From Candidatus Binatia bacterium (lineage in GTDB: Bacteria; Eisenbacteria; RBG-16-71-46; SZUA-252): a stretch of 62,823 nucleotides of DNA. Location of the stretch: positions 1 through 62,823 of the forward strand of contig DASQJL010000015.1 of assembly GCA_035631035.1 (NCBI GenBank), in the 5' to 3' direction. The translations under genes and the position numbers were made by a program. The notes beneath the pieces were generated by a model. That model saw only the letters and a list, made by a program, of their open reading frames with translations, did no database searches and was not told the origin of the DNA. This document shows, in pieces, positions 8,765-62,587 of this stretch (position 1 is the stretch's first letter; each line of letters begins with the position of its first letter).

Positions 8765-8779
8765 TGGCACAGCGGTTGC
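8765..8779 (+). promoter_or_regulatory. Sigma-54 (-24/-12) promoter
   Basis: TGGCACAGCGGTTGC matches the consensus TGGCAC-N5-TTGC, with exactly ten bases between GG and GC. It reads rightward toward the phosphopentomutase-like gene; the expected transcript start is near 8791. No other plus-strand gene intervenes. Confidence 0.75.
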
Positions 8780-8897
8780 CTAATTCAAAGATCCGTAACG
8801 AATTCGGGAGCCAGGCAGCGCCGGTCATTGATTCCGCGTCCCCGGCCCAGCACCGACCGTGCGCTGCCTCTATGGCTCCCGTTTCGTTGTTCCGTCC

Positions 8898-9815
8898 GTG
8901 ACTCGCGCGCGCCCGCGCCGTCGGGTTCTCCTCTTCTTCATCGATGGGATCGGGGTCGGCTCGAGCGACGCCTCGATCAACCCCCTCGTCTCGCTCGACC
9001 GTCCCGTGCTCCGCCTGACCGAACGTGAAACGCCGCGTTCCGCGGCCGCGGGCGCTCCCGCCAGCGCCCGGGGCGTGGACGCCTCGCTGGGCATCCCCGG
9101 GCTCCCCCAGAGCGCGACGGGGCAGACCACGATCCTCACCGGCGTGAACGCGCCCGCGGCGATGGGACGGCACGTCTCGGGCTTACCCGGACCGACCCTC
9201 CGGCGGATCCTGGCCGAGAGCTCCCTTCTGAAAGAGCTGGCCGAGCGTGGACTCGACGCCACGTTCCTGAACGCGTTCGGGCCGCGCTTCTTCGAGGCCG
9301 AGCCGCGGCATCGCCGCCTCTCGGCGACCACGCTGGCGACCCTGGCCGCGGGCGTGAAGCTGAGGACCTGGGAGGATCTGACGGAGGGGCGCGCGGTCGT
9401 GCACGACCTCACCCACTGGCGCATGCGCGACTACGGCTTCGATCTCCCGCGCCGCGAGCCGGAGGAGGCGGGCGCGATCATCGCGCGCGAGGCGATGCGG
9501 GCCGACTTCTCGCTGTTCGAATACTTCGAGACCGACCGCGCCGCGCACGCGATGGACCGCGCGGCCGCCGACCGCTGCCTGGACGACCTGAGCGCCGCGC
9601 TCGAGACGGTGCTGAGCCAGGCCGATCTTCGCGAGCTTCTCGTGCTCGTCGTGAGCGACCACGGAAATCTGGAAGACTTGCGGGTGAAGACGCACACGAA
9701 GAATCCGGCCTTCTTCGCGGCGTGGGGGGCATGGGACGGCCTCCCGGAGCCGCGAAGCCTGCTCGATATCGCTCCGCTGGTCCGGGAGGCCCTGGGCGCT
9801 ACTGCAGGCGCTTGA
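8898..9815 (+). CDS. Metalloenzyme of the alkaline-phosphatase/phosphopentomutase superfamily
   Basis: Resembles the short proteins annotated as metalloenzyme-domain or phosphopentomutase-like. VLLFFIDGIGVGSSD is the first metal site, GIPGLPQSATGQTTILTGVNA carries the nucleophile Thr region (S-A-T-G-Q-T), YFETDRAAHAMD and VLVVSDHGNLEDLRVKTHTKNP give the remaining Asp/His metal ligands. These are the marks of the phosphoglycerate mutase/phosphopentomutase branch, though it is shorter than true DeoB and the substrate is unknown. The start is uncertain: GTG 8898 begins just before the conserved domain, ATG 8859 is an alternative, and neither has a Shine-Dalgarno sequence. Expression is probably sigma-54-dependent because of the promoter at 8765. 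It overlaps the convergent PpiC gene by 17 nt. Confidence 0.8.
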   Translation: MTRARPRRRVLLFFIDGIGVGSSDASINPLVSLDRPVLRLTERETPRSAAAGAPASARGVDASLGIPGLPQSATGQTTILTGVNAPAAMGRHVSGLPGPTLRRILAESSLLKELAERGLDATFLNAFGPRFFEAEPRHRRLSATTLATLAAGVKLRTWEDLTEGRAVVHDLTHWRMRDYGFDLPRREPEEAGAIIAREAMRADFSLFEYFETDRAAHAMDRAAADRCLDDLSAALETVLSQADLRELLVLVVSDHGNLEDLRVKTHTKNPAFFAAWGAWDGLPEPRSLLDIAPLVREALGATAGA

Positions 9816-31005: not shown

Positions 31006-32388
31006 TCAGCGGCCCCGGTGACCCCAGCCCCCTTCGCCCTGGTCGCGGCGGTCCTGGCCGCGGCCGTTGTCGTCGCGACGGCGCTCCTCGCTCCGCCCAC
31101 GGTCGCCGCGATCCTGGCGATCCTGGCTACGGTCGTCGCGCTGGCGGGCCTGATCGCGGTCCTGACGCTCCTGCCGGCGGTCCTCCACCCGGCCGCGATC
31201 GCGGCCCCGCTGCTCGTCGCGCCCCTGCTGCTGCCGCTGGTCGTCCCGCCGCTCCCGGATCTGGCGCCGGTCGTCGGGCTGCTGATTCTGCTGGCGGTTG
31301 TCGTTCTGGCGCCGCTCGCGCGTTTCAAACCATTGGCGCCGCCGCTGGTCGTCGCCGCGCACGTCGCCGCCGCGCGCGTCGCCGCCGTTCCGGCGCAGGA
31401 CCTCGTCGGGCCGCCACACGCGTCCCTCGCGCGGGCTGCGGAACCGCTGGAACTCGGGCGGCGTGCGCCGCTGGATCATCTGGCGCCGGGACTGGAACTT
31501 GTCGGTCCCGTCCACCTGGAATCGCGTGCGCAGGGTCGCCCGGCCGTCCACCGAAGACCAGCGGTCCTTCCACTGGCGGTAGCGGGTCGGCGCGGTGGAC
31601 CGCACCATGTAGAAGTAGCGCGGCCGGAGGATCCGCGACCGGAGCGGACGGTAGTGCGCCCATCCGGCGTCGATCCGGATGTCCACCACCGAACAGACGT
31701 CCCCGTACGGGTCGAACCAGCCGCCGTAGGAATGGCAGTCGGCGCAGACGTAGCGCGGGTAATCGACCTTCCGCTCGATGTAGAAGTAGGTGTCGGCCGT
31801 CGCGACCTCGCCCTCCAGGCCGCGCGGCACCACGCGGCGCACGACCCGATCCATGCCGATGTAGGGGTCGCCCACGATGACGCCGGAATCCCCCTCATCG
31901 TCGTCCCCATACTCCTCGCCCCGGTCCCGCCCCTCGTAGCCGCCGGTCAGGTACCACGGCAGATCGCGGAACGGCTCGGGAGAGGCGATGGCGACGAGGT
32001 ACTCCATGCCGGTGGGCCCATCGGCCACCAGGTCGTAGGGATCGTTGCGGGAAGGCACCTGATAGGTGCGGCCCCCCTCGACCATGTCGGGATCGCCCGG
32101 GTCGTAGGGGTACACGAGGTGGATGTAGCCCTCGGTGTCGATGTTGTAGATCAGAACGTAGGCGTCAGCTCTGGCCCGGAAGAAGACGCGCATCGGCTCG
32201 CCTTGGCGATAGACGCCGCCCTCTTCCTTGTTGGTCCAGACGTCGATGTCGAGCCGAGGGGCATGGGCCGCCTCATACGAGATGGAGGCATCGACACGAA
32301 CCGCCGCACGGGAAGCCACGGGGAGCGCCGCGGCCATGAGGGCCGCGGCGCCCGCGACGAACAGGCGGCGCCAACGCGCGTGTTTCAT
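31006..32388 (-). CDS. Secreted DUF4384-domain protein with a CxxCH motif and charged tail
   Basis: 460 residues. A signal peptide (LFVAGAAALMAAALPVASRA) is followed by a DUF4384 domain (about 45-140: VDVWTNKEEGGVYRQGEP-type start, VFFRARADAYVLIYNIDTEGYIHLVYP). A second beta region contains YVCADCHSYGGW, a perfect c-type heme-attachment motif at 215-219 with a further cysteine at 232; it could equally be a metal or structural site. From about residue 340 the sequence is a 120-residue Arg/Asp/Gln/Gly-rich disordered tail. DUF4384 occurs in surface and kinase-linked bacterial proteins; function is unknown. Its ATG overlaps the lipoprotein stop (TGATG), so the two are one operon. Confidence 0.85.
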   Translation of the reverse strand: MKHARWRRLFVAGAAALMAAALPVASRAAVRVDASISYEAAHAPRLDIDVWTNKEEGGVYRQGEPMRVFFRARADAYVLIYNIDTEGYIHLVYPYDPGDPDMVEGGRTYQVPSRNDPYDLVADGPTGMEYLVAIASPEPFRDLPWYLTGGYEGRDRGEEYGDDDEGDSGVIVGDPYIGMDRVVRRVVPRGLEGEVATADTYFYIERKVDYPRYVCADCHSYGGWFDPYGDVCSVVDIRIDAGWAHYRPLRSRILRPRYFYMVRSTAPTRYRQWKDRWSSVDGRATLRTRFQVDGTDKFQSRRQMIQRRTPPEFQRFRSPREGRVWRPDEVLRRNGGDARGGDVRGDDQRRRQWFETRERRQNDNRQQNQQPDDRRQIRERRDDQRQQQGRDEQRGRDRGRVEDRRQERQDRDQARQRDDRSQDRQDRGDRGRSEERRRDDNGRGQDRRDQGEGGWGHRGR

Positions 32389-33167
32389 CAGTTCTTCCTC
32401 GCGATCTTCGGAGCGAGCTCCGGATTGTCGGGATCGATCTGGTAGGCCCAGTCGATCACGATGCTGCCCGCCGCTTTCGAGACCACCTCGAACTTGGCGT
32501 AATGATTGTCCGCGGTCAGAACGATGTAGCTGTGCCCCGGAATGGCCTCGACGACCCCGTCGGCCGACCAGCCGTCGCTCGCGGGAGGCCCGAAGTCCAC
32601 GTCCACCAGGTCGACGAGCCCCGCGTCCTGAATCTTCACGCCGGTACCGGCGAAGACCAAGGCGCCGCTCGAAGCGTCGAACCAGATGTCGGCGGAGGCG
32701 CTCGTCGACGCCACGCGGGACATCGCCGAGAAGTCCCAGCCGGCCGTGGCCGGCGTCGTGGCGGCATCGGTCAGGGTCACGTTCGTGCCCTCCGGCCGCG
32801 GCGTGTCGAACACGTTCTCGAAGCTCAGGTCCGCGCTCTCCAGTCCGCGGGTGTCCACCGCCGACACGGCGTAGTAGTAGGTCGTGCCGTTCGTCACGTG
32901 CGTATCGATGAAGGGAGGCTGAACGGCGGTGCCGATGAGCGTGAACGTGCCCGTGGGCGCGCTGTTACGGTACACCTTGTAGTGGTCGATGTCGTTCTCC
33001 TGGTTCTCCCTCCAGTAGATCGAAACCTGCCCGTCTCCCGTGACGCTGTAGACGCCCTCCACGTCGAAGGGAGCGTTGCTGGTCCCAACCACGTGATCCT
33101 CGTTGCGGCAGCCGGCCGTGAGCGCCACGGCCGCGAGGCCGAGCGCCAGAAGTAACGTGCGAGTCAC
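32388..33167 (-). CDS. FN3-domain lipoprotein
   Basis: Lipoprotein of about 259 residues: a short signal with the lipobox LTAGC, then a fibronectin type III domain (about 25-115: VEGVYSVTGDGQVSIYWREN, IDHYKVYRNSAPTGTFTLIG, TYYYAVSAVDTRGLESADLS). The second half is a beta-rich domain of unknown type (SADIWFDASSGALVFAGTGVKIQDAGLVD, HSYIVLTADNHYAKFEV). The GTG at 33167 is preferred over GTG 33173 because a perfect AGGAGG (33178-33173) would overlap the latter. A sigma-54-type site lies 79 nt upstream. It is translationally coupled to the DUF4384 gene. Confidence 0.87.
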   Translation of the reverse strand: MTRTLLLALGLAAVALTAGCRNEDHVVGTSNAPFDVEGVYSVTGDGQVSIYWRENQENDIDHYKVYRNSAPTGTFTLIGTAVQPPFIDTHVTNGTTYYYAVSAVDTRGLESADLSFENVFDTPRPEGTNVTLTDAATTPATAGWDFSAMSRVASTSASADIWFDASSGALVFAGTGVKIQDAGLVDLVDVDFGPPASDGWSADGVVEAIPGHSYIVLTADNHYAKFEVVSKAAGSIVIDWAYQIDPDNPELAPKIARKN

Positions 33168-33246: not shown

Positions 33247-33261
33247 GCATAGCATATGCCA
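33247..33261 (-). promoter_or_regulatory. Sigma-54-type promoter before the FN3 lipoprotein/DUF4384 operon
   Basis: Minus strand TGGCATATGCTATGC has GG and GC ten bases apart, with TGGCA intact and ATGC in place of TTGC. The expected start near 33235 gives a leader of about 70 nt that includes the AGGAGG of the lipoprotein gene. Confidence 0.6.
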
Positions 33262-33629: not shown

Positions 33630-33644
33630 GCAGCCATCGTGCCA
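33630..33644 (-). promoter_or_regulatory. Sigma-54-type promoter in the intergenic region
   Basis: Minus strand TGGCACGATGGCTGC has a perfect -24 and CTGC at -12 with ten-base spacing. The predicted start near 33618 would give a non-coding RNA or a leader of about 450 nt; no open frame begins within 150 nt. Confidence 0.5.
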
Positions 33645-33851: not shown

Positions 33852-36800
33852 TTAAGCTCTTTGCCGGGTGCCGCGCCGGTCGAGGTGGAAGAGCTTGATC
33901 TTCTGCAGAAGGGTCGGGTAGGAGAGGCTCAGTTCCCGCGCGGCCTGGAGCTTGTTCCAGTTATGGCGTTCGAGGGCCTGGGCGATCATGCGGCGCTCCA
34001 CCTTGGCAACCTCGGAGCGAAGCGTGGCAGGCCCCTCGGCGACGTCGTCCTCCTTGCGAAGGATCTCGCGAGGGACCAGGCGTAGGGACAGGACTTCTCC
34101 GTCGTTGGCCATCACGACCATCCGCTTCACGACCTTCTCCAGCTCGCGCACGTTGCCGCGCCAGGGGAGCGACGAGAAGGTGCGGATCAGCTCGGGATCC
34201 ACGCCGCCCACTTCCTTGGACATCTCGACGGAGAAGCGCCGGATGTAATGCTCCAGGAGGATCGGAATGTCCTCGGGACGCTCCCGGAGCGGCGGGACGC
34301 GGAAACAGATGTCGTTCAGCCGGTAGTAGAGGTCTTCCAGGAACTCCCCGCGGGCGATCCGCGCGCGCAGGTTCACGTTCGTGGCGCAGATGACCCGCAC
34401 GTCCACCTTCGCGGGACGGTTCCCGCCGACGGGGCGAACCTCGCGGTTGTCGAGCACCTGGAGCAGCTTTCCCTGGATGGTGATGGTGGTCTTGTCCACT
34501 TCGTCCAGGAACAGCGTGCCGCCGTTCGCCTCGACGAAGAGGCCCGCCTTGTCCCGCACCGCCCCCGTGAAGGCACCCTGCACGTGCCCGAAGAGCTCGC
34601 TCTCGAGGAGCTGCTCGGGCAGCGCCGCGCAGTTCACCTGGACCAGCGGCTTGTTCGTCCGGACGCTGGAGGCATGAATGGCGCGAGCGAGGAGTCCCTT
34701 GCCGCTTCCCGTCTCGCCTTCGATCAGGATCGTCGCGTCGGTCGGGCCGACACGCTCCAGCAGGGAGAGGATCTCGAGGAGGTCGGGACTCCGCGTCACG
34801 ATGCCGTGGTCGTTGGCCGATCCGAGCAGCCGCCCCCGCAGCGCGCTGTTCTCCTGCGCGAGGCGCTGGCGCTGGCGCTCGAGGATCGCGACCGCGACGT
34901 GATTCGCGAGGACGGTGATGAGGTTGACCTCGCGCTGCTTGAAGGCTCCCAGCGGCTCCTCCGACCGGTCCAGATAGAGGTAGCCCGGCAATCCCGAAGG
35001 CAGCGAGAGCGGAATGACGGCGACCGTCGTCCGTGCCCCGATGTGATAGGTGGCCGGAAGGTCGCGGAATCGCTCGTCGGCGCCGGCCCGGCTGGTCACG
35101 ATGGGGCCCGAGGCGAGCCGGGCGGGGCCGATCCGCCGTTCCAGCTCGCGGATCAGGTCGTGCGCGAGACGGTTCGCCATCCCGACCGTGGCGACGGCTT
35201 CGATGCCGCCCTGCGCGGCCGGCGCGGCCACGATGGCGCGGGTCGCTCCCGCGCGGCGCGCCACGATCGAGAGGATCTCCTGCAGCGCGGTCTCGGCGTC
35301 GCCGCCGCGGAGCGCCGTCCGGATCTCGTCGAAGGCCGCGAACTCGTTCGTCTGCGACGAGGAGCCGTCGATGAGACCCTGCTCCACCTCGCTCCGGAAG
35401 AGCTCGATCTCGCGCGCGAGCTCGGGATCTTCCTCGGGCGTCAGGAGCGACGTGGCGTGATCCACGTGGATGACGGCATCGTCCATCAGCCCGCGGAGCA
35501 GCTCGCTCCGCGCGAGCTCGAGAAGAGCCCGCGCCGTGTGCACCGGCAGGCGGAGCGTCTCGAATCCGGCGGCCGCGCGCCGGAGGTACCCGATCGATTC
35601 GTCGAGGACCCCGCGCGAGCGGCCCTTCCGGCCGCGCTTGCGCCAGACGATCCCCACCGCGTAGTTGAGCTTCGCCAGCTCGTAGCGCTTGCTGATTCCG
35701 GAGAGGATCCGCGCCGCTTCGTCGATGAAGCCGCGGGCCTCTTCCCACTCGCCGGCTTCGGCGGCCCGAAGTCCCAGGAGCCGAAGCGAGCAGGCTTCTT
35801 CGATGCGGTCGCCCAGGCGCCGCGCGATCGCCAGGGCGCGCTCGCCGCTTCGCCGCGCCGGATCCAGCTCGCCCATGCGGACCTGAGCGTCGCCGATCCG
35901 GCGCCACAGCTCGACCTGAAGGTCGGAGTCGGTGGCGAGCTGATCGGCGAGGGCCATGCCCGTGTCGTATTCGGTGCGCGCCTCCTGGAAACGGCCGAGA
36001 TCGGCGAGCCAGTCGCCCAGCGCTTCGTGGGCCAGCACGATCTCGCGGCGGCAGTTCCGCTCGGTCGCGAGCGCGAGCCCCTCGCGGATCAGGCTCTCGG
36101 CGCCGCTGAAGTCGCGGCGCTTCCGCCGCAGGATGCCCAGGTGGTTCAGCGAGCGGGCCTTTCCGGCCGCGAAGCCGGTCTCGGTGTAGATCTGGAGGGC
36201 GCGGCGGTAATGCTCTTCCGCCAGATCCCACTCGCCCATCTTCTCGTGGACGATGCCCAGGTTGTGGAGGTAGGTCCCCGAGTCCTGATAGAGCCCGGCG
36301 CGCTCGGAGATGCGCAGCGCCTGCTCCAGGAAGCGCGCCGCTTCCTTGAAGCGGCACTGATTCTTGTGCACCAGCGCCAGGCTGTTGTACGCCGAGGCCA
36401 TGCCGGCCTGGAAGTCCGCCCGGCGATAGGTCGCGATCGCGCTCTCGAAGTAATCCCGCGACGACGACCAACTGCCGGTGCGAAGCGCGATCCAGCCCAG
36501 GGTCATCTCCGCGCGGCCGATGTCGAAGTTCAGCGTCGTTTCGCGGAGGAGCCGGTAGGCGAGGACCGAGGAGCGCTGCGCGGCGCGATAGCGTCCGCGA
36601 TCAAAGAGGAGAATGCCGAGGCTGCCGGCCAGGCGGCCGATCTGCTCGGGGGTGACGTGCGGCCGGAGACGGTGATGGAGGTCGTGGAGCGCGTCCACCG
36701 CCTCGTCCAGGTCGCCCCGGTAACGGAGGCAGTCGACGATGCGCGCGCCCAGGCGGAACAGCGCGTCCCGGTCCGCCGTGCCGTTCCGGCTGGCCTCGGC

Positions 36801-36980
36801 GTCGAGCGCGCGGCGGTAGTACTCGAGCGCCACGGCGTAGTTGTCCGCGGCGAAGTACAGATCTCCGAGCTCTTGAGCGCGGTGCTCTTCCCCTTCGGAG
36901 ACGGACGCTTGCGCGCCCGTCTCCTCGAGGTCACCACTGCTCTTGATATTCGGTCGGTCCCTGGGGACTAGTCCGTCCAT
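33852..36980 (-). CDS. Sigma-54-dependent transcription activator with TPR and GAF sensor regions
   Basis: 1042-residue bacterial enhancer-binding protein. Residues about 32-510 form a run of ten or so TPR units (AEEHYRRALQIYTETGF, FKEAARFLEQALRISERAGLY and similar). About 560-705 is a GAF-type sensor (VAVIPLSLPSGLPGYLYLDR). The AAA+ domain spans 723-950 with Walker A GETGSGKG (755-762), the sigma-54 contact loop GAFTGA (802-807) and Walker B TLFLDE (822-827). A Fis-type HTH lies at about 993-1034 (AARELSLSYPTLLQKIKL). There is no receiver domain, so control is by ligand or protein binding through TPR/GAF, not phosphorylation. The stop borders the intergenic region with sigma-54 sites, and its targets may include the adjacent lipoprotein operon. 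The start ATG has GAGGG nearby. Confidence 0.93.
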   Translation of the reverse strand: MDGLVPRDRPNIKSSGDLEETGAQASVSEGEEHRAQELGDLYFAADNYAVALEYYRRALDAEASRNGTADRDALFRLGARIVDCLRYRGDLDEAVDALHDLHHRLRPHVTPEQIGRLAGSLGILLFDRGRYRAAQRSSVLAYRLLRETTLNFDIGRAEMTLGWIALRTGSWSSSRDYFESAIATYRRADFQAGMASAYNSLALVHKNQCRFKEAARFLEQALRISERAGLYQDSGTYLHNLGIVHEKMGEWDLAEEHYRRALQIYTETGFAAGKARSLNHLGILRRKRRDFSGAESLIREGLALATERNCRREIVLAHEALGDWLADLGRFQEARTEYDTGMALADQLATDSDLQVELWRRIGDAQVRMGELDPARRSGERALAIARRLGDRIEEACSLRLLGLRAAEAGEWEEARGFIDEAARILSGISKRYELAKLNYAVGIVWRKRGRKGRSRGVLDESIGYLRRAAAGFETLRLPVHTARALLELARSELLRGLMDDAVIHVDHATSLLTPEEDPELAREIELFRSEVEQGLIDGSSSQTNEFAAFDEIRTALRGGDAETALQEILSIVARRAGATRAIVAAPAAQGGIEAVATVGMANRLAHDLIRELERRIGPARLASGPIVTSRAGADERFRDLPATYHIGARTTVAVIPLSLPSGLPGYLYLDRSEEPLGAFKQREVNLITVLANHVAVAILERQRQRLAQENSALRGRLLGSANDHGIVTRSPDLLEILSLLERVGPTDATILIEGETGSGKGLLARAIHASSVRTNKPLVQVNCAALPEQLLESELFGHVQGAFTGAVRDKAGLFVEANGGTLFLDEVDKTTITIQGKLLQVLDNREVRPVGGNRPAKVDVRVICATNVNLRARIARGEFLEDLYYRLNDICFRVPPLRERPEDIPILLEHYIRRFSVEMSKEVGGVDPELIRTFSSLPWRGNVRELEKVVKRMVVMANDGEVLSLRLVPREILRKEDDVAEGPATLRSEVAKVERRMIAQALERHNWNKLQAARELSLSYPTLLQKIKLFHLDRRGTRQRA

Positions 36981-39762: not shown

Positions 39763-41367
39763 ATGTTCGGCACCCTTCACCGGAAGCTCCTCGCCCTCTT
39801 CTTCCTCGTCGCGCTCATCCCCTCGCTCGGGCTGACGCTGTTCGTCACCCAATACCTGGCCAAGAGCCTGGCCGCGCTGCGCAATCCCGAGACCGAGCGC
39901 GCGCTGGCCCAGTCGCTCGAGGTGATCCGCCAGGGGATCGAGCGGCTCGGCAGCGACGCGCAGCACCACGCGACGGTCATGGCGGAGGACGACGCCTCGA
40001 CCCGGCTGCTCGCCGCGGGAACGCTGCCCGAGGTGGAGCGCTGGCTTCGGGACGAGGCCCGGGAGCGCGGACTGGACTACGTGGTGCTCTACCGGAACGA
40101 CGCCAAGCTGGCGCGCGTCTTCGGCGCGCGCTTCGGACCCCGCATCACCATCCCCGAGCCGGAGCGCGAGCCCCTGCTCGCCGCGCTGAACGAGGGGGGG
40201 CTCGTATCGGGGGGCGAGGTCCCGCGGCAGGTGAGCGGCGTGGCGACGTTCGGGAAGGACTACCTGATCCTGGCCGGCTACCAGCTCGACCCCGAGATCT
40301 CCTCGGAGATCGAGGCGCTCCAGAAGAACCTCACGATGTACAAGCGGCTCGGGGTCTACACCTGGCTCTCCGAGCGGAGCCTCTGGGTGTTCGCGGGGCT
40401 CTGGTCGGTGGTGCTCGGGCTCGTGAGCTTCATCCTCGCCACCCTCGTCTCGCGCAGCATCGCCCGGCCGATCGTGGCGCTGGAGAGCGGCATGGAGCGG
40501 ATCTCCGCGGGCGATCTGGCGCACCGCGTCGCTCCCGCCGGCACGCGCGAGGTGCGCTATCTGGGCAACGCCTTCAACCGGATGGTCGAGGAGATCCAGA
40601 CCTCGCGGCGCGCCCTCCTGCGGGCCGAGCGGCTCGCGGCCTGGCGCGAGGTGGCGCGCGCCGTGGCGCACGAGATCCGTAATCCGCTCACGCCGATCCA
40701 GTTCGCGCTGCAGCGGCTCCAGGAGGAGGCCCGCCGTCCCGCGCCGCGCGCCGAGGTGATCGGCGAGAACGCCGAGTCGATCCTCCGCGAGGTGCGCTCG
40801 CTCCAGGAATTCGTCACCGCCTTCTCGGCGGTCGCGCAGCTCCCGGAGCCCAAGCCCGCCCCCTGCGACGTGCCGGCGCTGGTCGAGGACGTGGCGCGGC
40901 TCTATCGCGGCTCCTCGCGCGTGGAATTCCGCGTTGAGGTGGAGCGCCCCGTTCCCTTAGCCTGGGCCGACTCCGGCCAGATCCAGCGCGTGCTCGTCAA
41001 CCTGATCAAGAACGCGATCGAGTCGATGGGCTCGGAGGGCGTGGTCACGCTTCGCGTGCGCCGGGACGGGGACGCCAGCGCCGGCGCCGCTTCGGTCGCG
41101 CTCGACGTGGAGGACACCGGGCCCGGCATGGACCCGGCCACCCTGGAGCGCGCGACGCATCCCGGCTTCACCACCAAATCGAGCGGTAGCGGATTGGGGC
41201 TCACCCTGGTGCAGCGCATCGTGGAACAGCACGGCGGCCGCTTCGAGCTCGATTCGAGCCCGGGCGTCGGCACGCGCGCGACCGTGACGATCCCCACCGT
41301 TCCGGAAGAGAACGAAGCCCCGGCCGCGCCCGTCGCGAGCGGCGACGGCGCGAAGGCGAGCGCGTGA
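39763..41367 (+). CDS. ntrY: NtrY-type membrane sensor histidine kinase
   Basis: 534 residues. Two membrane segments (about 8-28 and 208-228) flank an extracytoplasmic sensor region of about 175 residues. A HAMP domain (about 229-283, SRSIARPIVALESGMERISAGDL) follows, then HisKA VAHEIRNPLTPIQ with His303, and an ATPase domain with NLIKNAIESM, DTGPGM and SGLGLTLVQRI. The order and the H-box are NtrY-like, but no PAS domain is present. It overlaps the regulator gene by GTGA. The gene starts 11 nt after rlmN. Confidence 0.92.
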   Translation: MFGTLHRKLLALFFLVALIPSLGLTLFVTQYLAKSLAALRNPETERALAQSLEVIRQGIERLGSDAQHHATVMAEDDASTRLLAAGTLPEVERWLRDEARERGLDYVVLYRNDAKLARVFGARFGPRITIPEPEREPLLAALNEGGLVSGGEVPRQVSGVATFGKDYLILAGYQLDPEISSEIEALQKNLTMYKRLGVYTWLSERSLWVFAGLWSVVLGLVSFILATLVSRSIARPIVALESGMERISAGDLAHRVAPAGTREVRYLGNAFNRMVEEIQTSRRALLRAERLAAWREVARAVAHEIRNPLTPIQFALQRLQEEARRPAPRAEVIGENAESILREVRSLQEFVTAFSAVAQLPEPKPAPCDVPALVEDVARLYRGSSRVEFRVEVERPVPLAWADSGQIQRVLVNLIKNAIESMGSEGVVTLRVRRDGDASAGAASVALDVEDTGPGMDPATLERATHPGFTTKSSGSGLGLTLVQRIVEQHGGRFELDSSPGVGTRATVTIPTVPEENEAPAAPVASGDGAKASA

Positions 41368-42716
41368 GCGCGTCCAGGATCCGCGTCCTCGTCGTCGACG
41401 ACGAGCCCTCCGTCCTCCTCGAGACCTCGGCCAGCCTCAAGCGCAGCTACGAGGTGCTCACCGCCTCGCGCGCCGAGGAGGCGGAGAAGATGCTGGCCGA
41501 TCAGCGCGTGGATCTCCTCCTCACCGATCTTCGCCTCCCCGGCAAGGACGGCATCGCCCTGCTCGAGAGCGTGAAGGCCTCCCACCCCCACGTGCCGGTG
41601 GTGCTCATGTCCGGTCACGGCACCATCGAGGAGGCGGTCAAGGCGATCCGGCTCGGCGCGGTCGATTTCGTCGAGAAGCCGTTCGGTCCCGAGCGCCTCC
41701 AGGTCACCGTGGAGCGGGCCCTGGAGCTCAAGGCGCTGCAGCGCGAGAACGAGCGGCTCCGCTCCATCACCGGCGCGGCCGACGAGATGGTGGGCAAGAG
41801 CCGGGTGCTGGACCAGATCCGCGGCGAAGCCTCCAAGGTCGCGAAGACCGACGCCAAGGTGCTCATCAGCGGGGAGAGCGGCACGGGCAAGGAACTGGTC
41901 GCGCGCTCGATCCATCGGATGAGCGCGCGCGCGCGCGGACCGTTCGAGAAGCTGAACTGCGCGGCGCTTCCCAAGGACCTGGTCGAGAGCGAGCTCTTCG
42001 GCTACGAGAAGGGCGCGTTCACGGGAGCGGCGCAGATGAAGCGCGGCCGGCTGGAAGCGGCCGACCAGGGGACCCTCTTCCTGGACGAGGTCGGCGACAT
42101 GAGCCTGGAAACCCAGGCCAAGTTCCTTCGCGCCATCGAGACCGGCGAGATCGAGCGCCTCGGGGGCACGCGCACGATCGCGGTGGACACCCGGATCCTG
42201 GCCGCGACGAACAAGGATCTTCCGGCGGAGATCCAGGCCGGCCGCTTCCGCGAAGACCTCTACTACCGGCTGAACGTGGTGCCGATCCACATCCCGCCGC
42301 TCCGGGCCCGGCGCGAGGACGTGCCGCTCCTGGTGGCGCACTTCGTCCAGCGCTTCGGCGCCGAGCACCCGCGCGGCCCGCGCACGGTGACCCCGGCCGC
42401 GATGGAGCGGCTGACCCAGTACGCCTGGCCGGGGAACATCCGCGAGCTGAAGAACCTGATCGAGCGCCTCCTGATCATGACCGACGGCGATGCGATCGAG
42501 GTGGCCGACGTGGAGGACGCGCTTCCCGTGAACGCGGGAGACGAGCCGCCCAGCGAGATCCGCGCGGCGCGCGACAAGGCCGAGCGCGACACGATCCTCG
42601 CCATGCTCCGCGACTGCCAGTGGAACGTCAGCGAGGCCTCCCGCCGCCTCGGCATGGACCGCGGATATCTCCATCGGAAGATCAAGCGCTATGGGTTGTC
42701 GCGCGACGGCGCGTAG
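41364..42716 (+). CDS. ntrX: NtrC/NtrX-family sigma-54 response regulator
   Basis: 450 residues. A receiver domain (1-120) has VVDDE, the phospho-acceptor Asp55 (TDLRLPG) and Lys105 (VEKPF). An AAA+ domain follows with Walker A GESGTGKE (170-177), the sigma-54 loop GAFTGA (217-222) and Walker B TLFLDE (237-242). A Fis-type HTH is at the C-terminus (VSEASRRLGMDRGYLHRKI). It is the cognate regulator of the preceding kinase. It is the second GAFTGA-bearing activator in the window and could drive the sigma-54 promoters seen here. GTG start in a GTGA overlap. Confidence 0.94.
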   Translation: MSASRIRVLVVDDEPSVLLETSASLKRSYEVLTASRAEEAEKMLADQRVDLLLTDLRLPGKDGIALLESVKASHPHVPVVLMSGHGTIEEAVKAIRLGAVDFVEKPFGPERLQVTVERALELKALQRENERLRSITGAADEMVGKSRVLDQIRGEASKVAKTDAKVLISGESGTGKELVARSIHRMSARARGPFEKLNCAALPKDLVESELFGYEKGAFTGAAQMKRGRLEAADQGTLFLDEVGDMSLETQAKFLRAIETGEIERLGGTRTIAVDTRILAATNKDLPAEIQAGRFREDLYYRLNVVPIHIPPLRARREDVPLLVAHFVQRFGAEHPRGPRTVTPAAMERLTQYAWPGNIRELKNLIERLLIMTDGDAIEVADVEDALPVNAGDEPPSEIRAARDKAERDTILAMLRDCQWNVSEASRRLGMDRGYLHRKIKRYGLSRDGA

Positions 42717-57268: not shown

Positions 57269-58561
57269 ATGAGCCCGAACGCTAACCCATTTCTCTGGGG
57301 CGTGGCCACCTCCGCGCATCAGGTCGAAGGCGGCAACGACCGAAACGACTGGTGGGACTGGGAGCAGCAGCCCGGGCGCATCCGGGGCGGCGCCCGGTCG
57401 GGATCGGCGTGCCTGGGGTGGGAGCGCTACGAGGAAGACCTCGACCTGGTTCGCGCGCTGGGGTTGAACGCGTATCGCTTTTCGCTGGAGTGGAGCCGGA
57501 TCGAGCCGGAGCCCGGCCGCTACGACGAATCGGCGATCGCGCACTACCGTGCCGTGGTGGAGGGCTGCCGCGCGCGGGGCCTAACGCCGCTCGTCACCCT
57601 GCACCACTTCACCAATCCGCGCTGGTTCGCGGCGCTCGGGGGATGGGAAGAGCGAAGGAACCTGCCCCACTTCGAGCGCTTCGCGCGTCTGGCGGGCGAG
57701 CGCTACGGCGACCTCGTGGACCGATGGGTCACCGTGAACGAGCCGGAGGTCTACGGCTTCTACGGCTACGCGAGCGGCATCTGGCCTCCGGGCGTGAGCG
57801 ACCGCTCCCGCGCGCTGCAGGTGATCGCGAACATGCTCGAAGGACACGCCCTCGCCGCGCGCGCCCTGCGCGACGCCGATCGCGTGGATGCCGACGGGGA
57901 CGGTCGCGCGACCTGGATCGGGGCTTCGAAACACTGGGTGCTGCTCGATCCGAAGCGGCCCTGGTGGCCGCTCGACCGCCTCGCGGCCTCGGCGCAGCAT
58001 CAGGTGTTCAACGTCGCGGTGGCGCGCGCGCTCGCGGGAGGACCGATCGACCTCCGGATTCCGGGAGCCCGCCCCGCCGTCCGGGAGCCGTCCCTCATGC
58101 AGGGCTCGTCCGACTATCTCGGGCTCAACTACTACACCCGCTGGCTCGTGACGCTGACCGGAAAGGATCCGCGCAGCCCCAAGCCGGGTGCTCCGGTGAA
58201 CGACCTCGGATGGGAGGTCCTTCCCGAAGGGCTCGAGCGCGCCCTGCTCGAATGCGAGCGATTCGGGCTGCCGATCGTGGTGACCGAAAACGGAATCGCC
58301 GACGCCGCTGATCGCCTGCGCCCCGAGTTCCTGCGCCGGAGCCTCGCCGCCCTCGACCGCGCACGGGCGCGGGGCGTGGACGTGCGCGGCTACTTCCACT
58401 GGTCCCTGTACGACAACTTCGAGTGGGCCGACGGCCACGAGGGGCGCTTCGGTCTCTACGCCGTGGATTTCGACAATCCGGCGGGCCCCCGTGTAAAGCG
58501 GGACAGCTCCGACGTCCTCCGCGACGAGGTGAAATCCCGCATAAGTACTCGCCATTCCTGA
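57269..58561 (+). CDS. Glycoside hydrolase family 1 beta-glucosidase type
   Basis: 430 residues. FLWGVATSAHQVEG is the GH1 N-terminal signature, with YRFSLEWSRIEP, LVTLHHFTNPRWF, the acid/base Glu158 in TVNEPEVYG, LGLNYYTR, the nucleophile Glu340 in IVVTENG and YFHWSLYDNFEWADGHEGRFGL near the end. Lack of a signal peptide points to a cytoplasmic enzyme that hydrolyses beta-glycosides such as cellobiose. There is no obvious Shine-Dalgarno sequence. Confidence 0.93.
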   Translation: MSPNANPFLWGVATSAHQVEGGNDRNDWWDWEQQPGRIRGGARSGSACLGWERYEEDLDLVRALGLNAYRFSLEWSRIEPEPGRYDESAIAHYRAVVEGCRARGLTPLVTLHHFTNPRWFAALGGWEERRNLPHFERFARLAGERYGDLVDRWVTVNEPEVYGFYGYASGIWPPGVSDRSRALQVIANMLEGHALAARALRDADRVDADGDGRATWIGASKHWVLLDPKRPWWPLDRLAASAQHQVFNVAVARALAGGPIDLRIPGARPAVREPSLMQGSSDYLGLNYYTRWLVTLTGKDPRSPKPGAPVNDLGWEVLPEGLERALLECERFGLPIVVTENGIADAADRLRPEFLRRSLAALDRARARGVDVRGYFHWSLYDNFEWADGHEGRFGLYAVDFDNPAGPRVKRDSSDVLRDEVKSRISTRHS

Positions 58562-58594
58562 CGAAGCGCCGGGGTCACCGGATGCTCTTAGCCG

Positions 58595-58609
58595 TGGCAT
58601 GTGGGATGC
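58595..58609 (+). promoter_or_regulatory. Sigma-54-type promoter of paralogue 1
   Basis: TGGCATGTGGGATGC has GG-N10-GC spacing, with TGGCAT at -24 and ATGC at -12. The GC ends 59 nt before the ATG of the first secreted paralogue. Confidence 0.6.
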
Positions 58610-58668
58610 ACGAGCTCCCATCCGCGGGGCGGCACCGCGCCGCCTTGCCCAAACAAGGGAGCCTCCCC

Positions 58669-59136
58669 ATGAAACGACTGATCCTTCTGGCGGCGATCGC
58701 GATGCCGCTCATCGCCGTGAACGGGCGACCCGCGCTGGCGGCGGACGCCGGGATCTCGATCCACATCGGCGACAAGTACCAGGGAACCCGACTCCACTTC
58801 ACGACGCGCCCGGAGATGACGGTCGTGCCCCGCACGCGCGTCTACTACATGCAGAGCTCCGACGGCGACGTCTATCGCTACGGCCGCTACTACTACGGGT
58901 ACGACGAGGGCCGCTGGTATCGGGCCTCCAGCTACAGCGGCCCGTGGATCTATGTGCGCGGGCGGACCGTGCCGCGGCAGATCTATTCCGTGCCCCCGGA
59001 CTACCGCCACGGCTGGCAGGGCGATTACAACTACTGGCGGACCAGGGACTACGACGACCGGTGGGAGCAATACCAGGGAAATGGCGCAAACCGTGATGGG
59101 AACATGACTCCCACCGGAACCGAGGAACATCACTGA
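58669..59136 (+). CDS. Secreted Tyr/Arg-rich protein, paralogue 1 of 4
   Basis: First of four tandem homologous genes. The 155-residue product has a signal peptide (LILLAAIAMPLIAVNGRPALA) and begins its mature part ADAGISIHIGDKYQGTRLHF. The family core follows: VVPRTRVYYMQSSDGDVYRYGRYYYGYDEGRWYRASSYSGP with IYVRGRTVPRQIYSVPPDYRHGW and NYWRTRDYDDRW. No named family is recognised. Aromatic, alternating residues suggest a beta-structure. The tail is short and hydrophilic with a terminal HH. GGGAG lies 8 nt before the ATG, and the gene is served by a sigma-54-type promoter. Confidence 0.85.
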   Translation: MKRLILLAAIAMPLIAVNGRPALAADAGISIHIGDKYQGTRLHFTTRPEMTVVPRTRVYYMQSSDGDVYRYGRYYYGYDEGRWYRASSYSGPWIYVRGRTVPRQIYSVPPDYRHGWQGDYNYWRTRDYDDRWEQYQGNGANRDGNMTPTGTEEHH

Positions 59137-59143
59137 GCCCGGA

Positions 59144-59158
59144 TGGCACGTCCATTGC
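59144..59158 (+). promoter_or_regulatory. Sigma-54 promoter of paralogue 2
   Basis: TGGCACGTCCATTGC is a perfect match to the -24/-12 consensus and is identical, base for base, to the site before paralogue 3. It lies only 7 nt after the stop of paralogue 1. The GC ends 56 nt before the next ATG. Confidence 0.85.
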
Positions 59159-59214
59159 AGAAAGTGCTCTCCGTGAGCAGCAAGGGTGCTGTTCCACAAG
59201 GGAAAGGGATCCCC

Positions 59215-59679
59215 ATGAGACGACTGATGATCATCGCGGCGCTGTTGACGCCGCTTCTGGCGACCGGGTATACGACCCCGGCCAAGGCTGCCGATGTCGG
59301 CTTCTCCCTGCGGATCGGGGAGCGATATCACGGCGACAGACTGGTGTTCCGGCAGCGGCCGGAGATGGTCGTGGTCCCGGGCACACGCGTCTACTACATC
59401 GACGATCCGGATCGCGACGTCTACCGCTACGGCGGCTTCTACTACGCGTTCGACAACGGCCGTTGGTTCCGGGCGAGCAGCTATCGCGGCCCGTGGATTT
59501 ACGTTCGCGGACGGCAGGTTCCGCGCGCCATTTACATGGTTCCGGCCGACTATCGCCACAACTGGCACGGCGACTACCGGTACTGGCGCAATCGCGATTA
59601 CGACCGCGACTGGGATCGCAATCACAACAGCGACATGGACCGGCGGGATCGGTACCGCGACCGCGATCGCGGGTATTGA
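59215..59679 (+). CDS. Secreted Tyr/Arg-rich protein, paralogue 2 of 4
   Basis: 154 residues. The signal (LMIIAALLTPLLATGYTTPAKA) is followed by ADVGFSLRIGERYHGDRLVF, then the core VVPGTRVYYIDDPDRDVYRYGGFYYAFDNGRWFRASSYRGP, IYVRGRQVPRAIYMVPADYRHNWHGDYRYWRNRDY. The C-terminus is an Arg/Asp/Tyr-rich tail (RRDRYRDRDRGY). It is closest to paralogue 1. It ends at a UUCG-loop terminator 24 nt downstream. Confidence 0.85.
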   Translation: MRRLMIIAALLTPLLATGYTTPAKAADVGFSLRIGERYHGDRLVFRQRPEMVVVPGTRVYYIDDPDRDVYRYGGFYYAFDNGRWFRASSYRGPWIYVRGRQVPRAIYMVPADYRHNWHGDYRYWRNRDYDRDWDRNHNSDMDRRDRYRDRDRGY

Positions 59680-59702
59680 TCGCGTTGAATCAGGATCGCT
59701 TC

Positions 59703-59736
59703 AGGGCGGGGCCCTTCGGGGCCCCGCCTTTCGTTT
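59703..59736 (+). terminator. UUCG-loop terminator after paralogue 2
   Basis: A 12-bp stem (59703-59714 with 59719-59730, one G:T pair) closes on a TTCG tetraloop and is followed by TTTCGTTT. This is a strong intrinsic terminator that separates paralogues 2 and 3 into different transcripts. Confidence 0.9.
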
Positions 59737-59754
59737 GCCTTCGCCGGGCACGCA

Positions 59755-59784
59755 TGACGTCCGTAAATGTGACGTCCGTAAATG
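59755..59784. repeat. Tandem direct repeat, two 15-bp copies
   Basis: TGACGTCCGTAAATG occurs twice with no spacer (59755-59769 and 59770-59784), about 160 bp upstream of the paralogue 3 promoter. It may be an activator site or a slipped-strand duplication. Confidence 0.75.
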
Positions 59785-59888
59785 CCCCCTGGGACCCTGG
59801 AGTTGCACTGTGCACCCGACGTCCCGGCGTGCGGCATTTGGCAACGGCGGGACCGACGCCGGCGGGGTGTGTTTATCCTAATCTGTTT

Positions 59889-59924
59889 CAAGTCAACGAC
59901 TTGCCCCGCACCGCCCGTACGGGC
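59889..59924. promoter_or_regulatory. Palindromes next to the paralogue 3 promoter
   Basis: CAAGTC-AAC-GACTTG (59889-59903) and the perfect palindrome GCCCGTACGGGC (59913-59924) lie just upstream of the -24 element at 59927. They could be operator sites; no binding protein is known. Confidence 0.4.
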
Positions 59925-59926
59925 CC

Positions 59927-59941
59927 TGGCACGTCCATTGC
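59927..59941 (+). promoter_or_regulatory. Sigma-54 promoter of paralogue 3
   Basis: TGGCACGTCCATTGC, identical to the site at 59144. The GC ends 59 nt before the ATG of paralogue 3. The preceding terminator makes this the only promoter of the gene. Confidence 0.85.
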
Positions 59942-60000
59942 TTGTCTACTGCCTGTCGGGGTGAGATCCCGCCCCGCTCACGAAGAGGGAGGAACAAGCG

Positions 60001-60501
60001 ATGAAACGACTCCTGATGGCGGCCGTCGCCCTGGCGACGGTCGGGTTCGCCGCGATCCCGGCCTCGAGCACGGCTGCTACGAGCGTCGGAGTTTCGATCA
60101 ACATCGGCGACCCGTATCGCGGAGGCGCGCTTCACTTCCGTTCGGAGCCGGACGTGGTCCTCGTGCCCGACACGCGCGTCTACTACGTGCGGGATTACGA
60201 CTACGACGTCTATCGGTACGGCAGCTACTGGTACTTCATCGACGATGGCCGCTGGTATCGGGCGCGTTCCTACCGCGGCCCGTTCATGTATGTCCACGAG
60301 ACCTCGGTGCCGCGCGCGATCGTGACGGTTCCGGTGCGCTATCGCCGGCACTGGGGCGGACCGCCGCCGCACGCCGTGGCGCGCGGGTACTACCGCAATC
60401 ATGACGACCGGTTCGTGGAACGTCGCGACGAGCGGCACGATCGTGGGTGGGACAACCGCCACGATAACGGGCATGGGAGAGGACACGGCCGCGGGCACTG
60501 A
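60001..60501 (+). CDS. Secreted Tyr/Arg-rich protein, paralogue 3 of 4
   Basis: 166 residues. The signal (LLMAAVALATVGFAAIPASSTA) is followed by VGVSINIGDPYRGGALHF, then the core VLVPDTRVYYVRDYDYDVYRYGSYWYFIDDGRWYRARSYRGP and a C-terminal His/Arg/Gly/Asp tail (GWDNRHDNGHGRGHGRGH). This tail differs from that of paralogues 1 and 2 and may bind metal or nucleic acid, which is speculation. A strong GGAGG lies 8 nt before the ATG. Confidence 0.85.
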   Translation: MKRLLMAAVALATVGFAAIPASSTAATSVGVSINIGDPYRGGALHFRSEPDVVLVPDTRVYYVRDYDYDVYRYGSYWYFIDDGRWYRARSYRGPFMYVHETSVPRAIVTVPVRYRRHWGGPPPHAVARGYYRNHDDRFVERRDERHDRGWDNRHDNGHGRGHGRGH

Positions 60502-60546
60502 TTCGCGGCCGGTCAGCAGGGATACGCGCATGGACGCGCGGAGTTC

Positions 60547-60578
60547 AGGGGCTCCCGCGAGGGGGCCCTTGATGTTTT
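60547..60578 (+). terminator. Probable terminator after paralogue 3
   Basis: A 10-bp stem with two G:U pairs (60547-60556 with 60561-60570), a GCGA loop and a following GATGTTTT. It lies 45 nt after the stop of paralogue 3. Confidence 0.6.
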
Positions 60579-60709
60579 GTGGCAAGGTTGGGCAAGAGTG
60601 TGGCAGCGCAGATCCGAGGCGGATTCCCGGTGTCTAACGGTACGAAAGCTGGAGACACCACGGGGTCCAGCGCCTTGACGCAACGTGCATCGCACAGGAG
60701 AGTGAAACC

Positions 60710-61429
60710 ATGAAACGAACGCTCATGATCGCCGCCGCGCTGGCCTCCCTGGCCTTCGTGTCGGCCCCAAGCCCCTCGCAGGCGGCCAGCGTGGGCATCT
60801 CGGTTCGCATCGGCGATCCGTATCGCGGCGCGGCGCTGCACTTCCGCTCCGAGCCGGATTACGTCGTCGTCCCGGGGACGCAGGTCTATTACATGGATGA
60901 CGACTACGGCCGCGATTTCTATCGGTACGGCGGCTGGTACTACATGGTCGACGAAGGCTACTGGTACCGCGCCCGCTCGTACCGCGGACCGTTCATCCGC
61001 ATCGACTATCGCTCGGTGCCTCGCCAGTTCACCTATGTGCCCACCCGCTATCGCCGGCACTGGGGCTCGTCCAGCACCTACTTCCGGTATCGCGGCGGCG
61101 ACTACGGCGATCGCTACTACCAGGGCGACCGGTATCAGGGCCGCACCTACCGCACCCGCGATCGCTACAACGGCGATAACGGCGACCGCTACCGCCGGGA
61201 CGGGAACTGGGACAACCGGGACCGCAACTGGGACAACCGGGACCGCTCCTATCGGACGCGCGATCGCAACTGGGACTGGGACCGGAATCGGGACCGCCGG
61301 GACGATGGCGACCATCGCAGCGGGCGTGACGGCCGCTACCGCGACCGCAACCGCGGCGACAATCAGGACGACAACGGCGACCAGAACGACGACCAGGACA
61401 ACGACGGCCGCCGGGATCGCGGAAACTAG
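60710..61429 (+). CDS. Secreted Tyr/Arg-rich protein, paralogue 4 of 4 (long tail)
   Basis: 239 residues, the longest copy. The signal (LMIAAALASLAFVSAPSPSQA) is followed by ASVGISVRIGDPYRGAALHF and the core VVVPGTQVYYMDDDYGRDFYRYGGWYYMVDEGYWYRARSYRGP. Compared with paralogues 1-3 the tail is expanded to about 100 residues of Arg/Asp/Asn/Tyr-rich low complexity (RNWDNRDRSYRTRDRNW pattern). AGGAG lies 8 nt before the ATG. No GG-N10-GC site is present upstream; the closest match has only nine bases between GG and GC and is not counted. It ends at a good terminator. Confidence 0.85.
   Translation: MKRTLMIAAALASLAFVSAPSPSQAASVGISVRIGDPYRGAALHFRSEPDYVVVPGTQVYYMDDDYGRDFYRYGGWYYMVDEGYWYRARSYRGPFIRIDYRSVPRQFTYVPTRYRRHWGSSSTYFRYRGGDYGDRYYQGDRYQGRTYRTRDRYNGDNGDRYRRDGNWDNRDRNWDNRDRSYRTRDRNWDWDRNRDRRDDGDHRSGRDGRYRDRNRGDNQDDNGDQNDDQDNDGRRDRGN
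61205..61246. repeat. Two tandem 21-bp copies in the tail of paralogue 4
   Basis: A 21-bp unit encoding Asn-Trp-Asp-Asn-Arg-Asp-Arg is present twice without a gap (61205-61225 and 61226-61246). It is in frame, so tail length can vary by unit gain or loss. Confidence 0.8.
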
Positions 61430-61462
61430 GCGGCTCGGCTAGCCTCAGGCTGGTGAGACGAA

Positions 61463-61498
61463 AGTGGGGCTCCCCTCGCAAGGGAGCCCCGTTTCACT
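61463..61498. terminator. Terminator after paralogue 4
   Basis: GGGGCTCCC (61466-61474) pairs perfectly with GGGAGCCCC (61482-61490) around a 7-nt loop; A63-A62 may extend the stem and GTTTCAC follows. It separates the plus-strand gene from the convergent PAP2-type gene. Confidence 0.75.
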
Positions 61499-61525
61499 CC
61501 CCGGGCGCCTCCGGCGCCCGGAACA

Positions 61526-62587
61526 TCAGGCCGAAGCGACGTCGGCGCGGCGCGTTCTTCGCGCCCCCGCGTCGATGTTCGCGCGCGCCAGCTCGCGCTC
61601 GGGCACCCAGCGCGCCGCCTGCGCCTCCCACCAGCGCTCCAGCCTCGGCCCCGCCCACAGCGAGAAGAACGTGAGGACGAACCCCGCCAGGATGTCGACC
61701 ACCCAGTGGTGGCGAAGGTAGACCGTGCCGATGATGAGCCCGGTCGCGAGCACCAGCTGGATCGGGAAGAACCACCGCAGATGGCGCCAGGCGAGCAGCG
61801 TCGCCAGGAGGGCCACGGCGCAGTGCAGCGACGGGAAGGCGCCGTGCGCCGTGAGCGGGATCGCCTTCGTGGCCGCCCGCGACTGGTCGAGGATGGGCAG
61901 CAGACCGTGGAGCGGCGGGCCGAGCTGGGCGGCGATCAGGAAGCGCGGAGCGGAGGCCGGGAAGACGACGTAGCCGATGTAGCCCAGGTAGAGGCAGAGC
62001 ACGATGGAGAGGAGCGTGGCGCGGAACTCCGGGCGCATTTTCTTCCGGTAGAGGAGGAGGCCCAGAAGCGGCGGCGTCACGTAGAAGAGCCAGTAGCAGA
62101 CGGTGAGGAAGTCGGTCCAGAACGGCACCGTGAACTGCTGCGCCCACACGGTCGGCTCGACGCCGAAGAGCGCCACGTCCCCGCGATAGAGCGCCCGGGT
62201 GATGTCGGGAAAGCCGTAGAAGCGGATCAGGTCGTGGAGGCTCGCGTAGATGCTGCCGCAGAAGAGGAACGGCAGCGAATCGCGCGCGAGCTCCCAGCGC
62301 GGCTTGGCGCGCACGACCCACAGCGTGAGCGCCACCGTGGCGACCAGCGCGAGGAGCCGGGCGGCCGCGCTCGGATAGCCCGCCGCGTCGGGATCCACTG
62401 GATAGGACGCGGGGTTCGCGGCGATGACGGCGAGGGCGACCGCGACCGGCACGAAGAGGATCATCGTCATCACCTCTTCCGGCCGCATGGTGAAGATCGC
62501 GCGGCGGAACGATCCCGGCCGCGCCCTGTCCGGCGGCCGCCGCGCCGGTCCCTTCGCGCCCGGGAGCCCCGGAACCTTGGCCCTCAC
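61526..62587 (-). CDS. PAP2-superfamily (inositol phosphotransferase-like) membrane protein
   Basis: 353 residues with about six membrane segments (VAVALAVIAANP, LLALVATVALTLWV, FLTVCYWLFYVTPPLLGLLL, ATLLSIVLCLYLGYIGYVVFP, LVLATGLIIGTVYL and VVDILAGFVLTFFSLW). The phosphatase core has GAFPSLHCAVAL (PSLH) and YLRHHWVVDILAG, the second and third motifs of the PAP2 C branch that includes inositol phosphorylceramide synthases. It could transfer or remove a lipid-linked phosphate head group, which fits the inositol-lipid genes at 3.6-5.4 kb, though the distance is large. The GTG overlaps the upstream acyl-CoA synthetase stop as GTGA. Confidence 0.85.
   Translation of the reverse strand: MRAKVPGLPGAKGPARRPPDRARPGSFRRAIFTMRPEEVMTMILFVPVAVALAVIAANPASYPVDPDAAGYPSAAARLLALVATVALTLWVVRAKPRWELARDSLPFLFCGSIYASLHDLIRFYGFPDITRALYRGDVALFGVEPTVWAQQFTVPFWTDFLTVCYWLFYVTPPLLGLLLYRKKMRPEFRATLLSIVLCLYLGYIGYVVFPASAPRFLIAAQLGPPLHGLLPILDQSRAATKAIPLTAHGAFPSLHCAVALLATLLAWRHLRWFFPIQLVLATGLIIGTVYLRHHWVVDILAGFVLTFFSLWAGPRLERWWEAQAARWVPERELARANIDAGARRTRRADVASA

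Follow-up and report, generated by a model that had tools for sequence, protein, structure and literature searches.

Three elements in the window, the 62,823-nt stretch of DNA analysed here (contig C15 of a 3.35-Mb, 97% complete draft genome of an uncultured member of the Eisenbacteria), are very probably -24/-12 promoters of the RpoN (sigma-54) polymerase, each predicted to drive its own gene within a tandem family of secreted proteins (probability about 0.9). The assignment is considered very probably right because, throughout the phylum, most related genes are preceded by the same site. The features of the locus are as follows.

57302-58561 (+): glycoside hydrolase family 1 (GH1) gene, bounding the conserved neighbourhood on the left
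58595-58609 (+): -24/-12 element of paralogue 1, TGGCATGTGGGATGC, 8/10 consensus positions, 59 nt before the ATG at 58669
58669-59136 (+): paralogue 1, 155 aa, with a Sec-type signal peptide and an aromatic beta domain
59144-59158 (+): -24/-12 element of paralogue 2, TGGCACGTCCATTGC, 10/10, 56 nt before the ATG at 59215, predicted +1 near 59170
59215-59679 (+): paralogue 2, 154 aa
59703-59730 (+, approximate limits): terminator hairpin between paralogues 2 and 3, 12-pair stem, UUCG loop, T-rich tail
59755-59784 (+): two tandem copies of a 15-bp repeat, TGACGTCCGTAAATG, 142 nt upstream of site 3
59927-59941 (+): -24/-12 element of paralogue 3, TGGCACGTCCATTGC, 10/10, 59 nt before the ATG at 60001, predicted +1 near 59953
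60001-60501 (+): paralogue 3, 166 aa
60545-60572 (+): terminator-like hairpin between paralogues 3 and 4, from scan and folding
60710-61429 (+): paralogue 4, 239 aa, absent from the earlier note
61466-61490 (+): terminator-like hairpin after paralogue 4, scored by the scan on the - strand
61526-62587 (-): PAP2-family gene, bounding the conserved neighbourhood on the right

The putative -24/-12 elements of the tandem locus

An earlier note on this DNA had described GG-N10-GC elements ending 59, 56 and 59 nt before the ATGs of paralogues 1 to 3, and both the sequence and a pattern scan reproduce these distances exactly. Likewise, sites 2 and 3 are identical at 15 of 15 positions and match the consensus perfectly, as had been claimed. 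All three sites hold GG and GC 10 nt apart within TGGCAYG-N5-TGCW. The 40-nt flanks of sites 2 and 3 agree at 12/40 and 8/40 positions, approximately the level of chance; since the flanks are so unlike, the identity of the two sites points to sequences that have been kept rather than to the leftover of a recent duplication.

Matches with two mismatches number 26 in the window against 39.7 expected, so there is no enrichment by number, and this would fit a reading of the elements as chance matches in a GC-rich genome or as leftovers of gene duplication. That reading is nevertheless extremely unlikely, given the dissimilar flanks as well as the conservation and placement of the sites described below. 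Of the genome's 26 TGGCAYG-N5-TGC sites, three lie in this 1.35-kb locus on one strand, where 0.005 would be expected (P ~2e-8, an optimistic value in that the pattern was picked after the sites had been seen). A scan of 58400-61600 found no sigma-70-type promoter. Two features of the locus count against sigma-54 promoters: paralogue 4 has no upstream GG-N10-GC site of 8/10 or better, and site 1 reaches only 8/10.

The two TGACGTCCGTAAATG copies upstream of site 3 are the only ones in the genome, the repeat being confined to that site. Their distance of 142 nt is usual for enhancers, and, speculatively, they could be a binding site for an activator.

Transcription units

The strong terminator that the earlier note had placed between paralogues 2 and 3 is a real hairpin: the region 59690-59740 folds at -30.5 kcal/mol (z -3.1), the hairpin at 59703-59730 having been missed by the terminator scan. 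The gap of 78 nt reported between paralogues 1 and 2 is also correct. Under the sigma-54 reading, RpoN holoenzyme at each site would give a short, single-gene transcription unit with a leader of ~45 nt, and the hairpins after paralogues 2 and 3 would end the transcripts.

Alternatively, sigma-54 control could be real while the tandem genes are transcribed mainly from one upstream promoter, with the inner sites minor. Consistent with this, no terminator was seen in the short gap separating paralogues 1 and 2, and the site is absent from one copy in genome G001 and one copy in genome G005 at the same locus. Site 2, however, at 10/10, is better than site 1 and sits within that very gap, and the strong hairpin parts paralogue 2 from paralogue 3; a single main promoter is thus judged unlikely, and one promoter per gene is preferred.

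Conservation of the locus

The order GH1, family genes, PAP2 recurs in this genome and seven others of its taxonomic family, with PAP2 present wherever the contig reaches it (the contig of G007 ends inside the locus). Between the two borders lie one family gene (G002, G003, G006), two (G001, G004), three (G005) or, here, four, and every one of the eight genomes has at least one family gene with a 9/10 or 10/10 site. The earlier proposal that a separate promoter has been kept for each gene is borne out in that most copies retain a private site across loci with 1 to 4 genes. The persistence of sites under varying gene number indicates that copies come and go, most of them keeping a private promoter.

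The secreted protein family

The four tandem paralogues encode proteins of 154-239 aa composed of a Sec-type signal peptide, one domain of ~80 residues and a charged, low-complexity tail. The domain is rich in Y, W and R (consensus VPxTRVYYVxDYDxDVYRYGxYWYxxxxGxWYRARSYRGPF ... VPR ... VPxxYR), and the C-termini are rich in R, D, G and H. Searches against Pfam, NCBIfam and PDB sequences gave no match. AlphaFold predicts a confident, small, beta-rich core, with mean pLDDT per ten residues of 85-97 over residues 31-120, and comparison of this core with PDB folds gave no match (best E 1.8). The charged tail is probably disordered. With their signal peptides the products would be delivered to the periplasm or outside, and they are probably envelope or matrix proteins.

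Three-domain versions occur in the same genome (contigs C11 and C113). Long secreted proteins of ~700-850 aa with three copies of the domain, mostly lacking sigma-54 sites, are encoded at L131, L127, L128, L130 and other loci.

Sites upstream of homologous genes

Homologues were found in 20 of the 47 genomes of the class. Two named ones, L090 and L091, come from Candidatus Eisenbacteria MAGs and match the genes of the G035:C45 and G040:C32 regions, which makes it very probable that the window belongs to this phylum. Homologue starts were set by Shine-Dalgarno sequence and signal peptide, blind to the sites, and 250 nt upstream of each were scored. Among the 43 short secreted homologues, a GG-N10-GC site at 30-130 nt scores at least 8/10 in 28, at least 9/10 in 19 and 10/10 in 7. 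Markov-resampled upstream regions lead one to expect 1.13, 0.10 and 0.00 of 43, respectively. For 59 permuted patterns the means are 4.1, 0.56 and 0.05, and the top-scoring ones closely resemble the consensus. In the full 250 nt, sites occur upstream of 31/43 homologues on the forward strand versus 3/43 on the reverse. Because the homologues share ancestry, their counts are only partly independent; by our own tally, the footprint draws on 11 of the 12 genera in which the family occurs. The excess of 28 over about 1.1 expected, with start choice independent of the sites, is difficult to reconcile with chance matches or duplication leftovers. Between 12 and 15 of the 43 homologues have no good site, which counts against the sigma-54 reading.

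Positions that were not scored are conserved as well, which also argues against chance: A or T directly follows the GC in 22/29 sites (P 9e-7), and G follows TGGCAC/T in 19/29. These positions match the known sigma-54 consensus, and an A+T-rich patch lies downstream of -12.

Whether other family members would carry the site, as the earlier note asked, has a divided answer. Across species they generally do; within this genome the result is mixed, with sites before three of the four tandem genes and before a distant homologue on C60 (CGGCACACGACATGC), and degenerate versions only on C77, C11 and C113. One of eight long multidomain homologues has a site.

Homologues in another class, that of the Syntrophobacterales MAG G060, were considered as a sign of ancient control, and this was rejected: 4/29 have a site. 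Because these homologues mostly lack sites, sigma-54 control of the family appears to be mainly a property of Eisenbacteria. The few in the Syntrophobacterales class that do carry sites of -24/-12 type include L209/L211, L208 and L202, for example TGGCATAAGCATTGC, 75 nt before the start.

Sites elsewhere in the window and genome

Two of 47 other genes in the window have a site, and these two sites may be real. Noted separately, a perfect TGGCACAGCGGTTGC at 8765-8779 (+) precedes a metalloenzyme-superfamily gene (8859-9815), 79 nt from the start as called. A lipoprotein-like gene at 32388-33167 (-) is preceded by TGGCATATGCTATGC (8/10) at 33247-33261 (-), 79 nt before its start and near the activator gene at 33852-36980; a second site, TGGCACGATGGCTGC, is found at 33630-33644 (-) in the same neighbourhood.

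Across the genome, pattern search with two strict patterns gave 33 distinct places, and the reversed pattern, used as control, gave 27; places were called genic or intergenic by a coding model trained on the window. Sites fall between genes at 31/33 places versus 5/27 for the reversed pattern (Fisher P 1e-9; 5e-9 without the three focal sites), and are intergenic with a start 30-130 nt downstream at 20/33 versus 2/27 (P 1.5e-5; 7e-5 without the focal sites). The distance from site to start is typically 45-120 nt. Consensus matches total 26 against 27 for the reversed control, an absence of excess that agrees with chance occurrence. As the totals do not exceed the control, the signal is in the placement of the sites, and this strongly intergenic placement again speaks against chance.

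Genes of pilus type with sites 45-113 nt upstream include those for a pilin, PilM, a GspH-type pseudopilin, two T2SSE/PilB-type ATPases and an MglA-like protein (L151, L155, L156, L008, L011, L154). The pilin gene, on C76, has TGGCATGGCGGTTGC 74 nt before its start; the small GTPase belongs by Pfam to the Arf family and is read as MglA-like. Other genes behind sites encode a glycosyltransferase and an HD-domain protein. From this distribution, the type IV pili of Eisenbacteria are likely to be under an RpoN programme. Sites are also found before small genes of stress type, namely DUF892, LysM, YflT and DUF5670 (L141, L145, L146, L147), suggesting that RpoN control has a second branch linked to stress. 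For the secreted family, which the earlier note had spoken of as a regulon, that term is supported in the sense of a map of putative sites.

RpoN and its activators

One rpoN gene, the presence of which was essential to the earlier proposal, is found in the genome (C82, E 6e-65); it is intact and has the RpoN box ARRTVAKYRE. Within the class, rpoN occurs in 45 of 47 genomes. In genome G006, a 91% complete draft with a 9/10 site, no rpoN was found, which counts against the sigma-54 reading.

The genome has 23 sigma-54 activator domains. At each promoter the holoenzyme would remain as a closed complex until one of these enhancer-binding ATPases is switched on by a signal. The two GAFTGA-type activators that the earlier note had seen in the window are both present, one of them beside a sensor kinase gene.

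33852-36980 (-): TPR-GAF-AAA-Fis sigma-54 activator, one candidate of the 23
39763-41367: sensor kinase paired with the NtrC-type activator
41364-42716 (+): NtrC-type sigma-54 activator (receiver-AAA-Fis response regulator), another candidate of the 23

The closeness of these activators to the family genes was considered as a sign of a link and rejected: synteny with G003 and G005 extends over the entire stretch and takes in housekeeping genes. Given 23 activators in the genome and such broad synteny, the window activators are no evidence of a link. A search for an enhancer motif shared upstream of 29 promoters, using gapped dyads and k-mers, gave nothing convincing, at most a marginal signal over shuffles.

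That no enhancer motif emerged, and that promoter identity is read from sequence, would be compatible with the elements being sites for another DNA-binding protein or sigma factor of similar sequence. Such a protein would have to share the exact 10-nt spacing of GG and GC, the A or T after GC, the A+T-rich patch downstream of -12 and the usual distance to the start; together with the intact RpoN box and the placement of sites before pilus genes, this makes the alternative very unlikely, and RpoN promoters are the preferred reading.

Comparison with known systems

The closest parallel is the PEP-CTERM system of Proteobacteria, in which most members of a secreted family have -24/-12 sites at a mean of 71 nt upstream of the start (Haft 2006, PMC1569441) and in which RpoN dependence was shown for pepA, a PEP-CTERM protein gene (PMC9850573). 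As in the PEP-CTERM regulon (PrsK/PrsR/RpoN), the present genes form a secreted family whose members mostly stand in units of one gene and each have a -24/-12 site outside coding sequence, found by upstream comparison; distances to the start, for most genes here, are 46-100 nt. This shared logic, in which conserved -24/-12 sites lie ~70 nt ahead of the starts of genes for secreted proteins (PMC1569441), and the kinase/NtrC-type pair in the window could suggest that the genes belong to a sigma-54 system of PEP-CTERM/exosortase type with a PrsK/PrsR pair. Such membership is most improbable, however: the C-termini lack a PEP motif plus membrane helix, the proteins have no family match, and, for the window pair only, the regulator scores 427.7 against the TIGR02915 cut-off of 502.6 and the kinase 83.5 against the TIGR02916 cut-off of 300. 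With no sorting tail and a window pair below the PrsR/PrsK cut-offs, the family resembles the PEP-CTERM regulon and is a non-member on the tests made. It further differs in protein domain and phylum, and no shared enhancer motif was found.

RpoN/PilR control of pilA is established in Pseudomonas aeruginosa (PMC6058289). The pilin gene on C76 with its TGGCATGGCGGTTGC site is similar; the secreted family itself does not consist of pilins. More broadly, sigma-54 has been viewed as a controller of the bacterial exterior, with stress, in the part of the survey available, on surface-polymer transport and biosynthesis, flagella and lipoproteins (Francke 2011, PMC3162934); the exported proteins, pilus genes and glycosyltransferase behind sites here would agree with what that part describes, and it contains no mention of this protein family. 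A literature search returned nothing joining sigma-54 with Eisenbacteria.

The family products are probably envelope or matrix proteins made on demand alongside other putative sigma-54 targets, namely type IV pili and stress proteins. A wider proposal, tentative and more doubtful than the promoter assignment, is that RpoN may direct a surface programme throughout the Eisenbacteria, with this family as its chief secreted product. The proteins would then be envelope or matrix proteins of a new kind, gained and lost gene by gene with a private promoter at one glycosidase-PAP2 locus, and a dedicated activator would have them made together with stress proteins and type IV pili. For an uncultured phylum the analysis provides a testable regulatory prediction, a map of putative RpoN-target sites with an undescribed secreted family among its most consistent members, and the connection of sigma-54 with secreted surface proteins, as seen for PEP-CTERM, would be extended to an unrelated family and another phylum.
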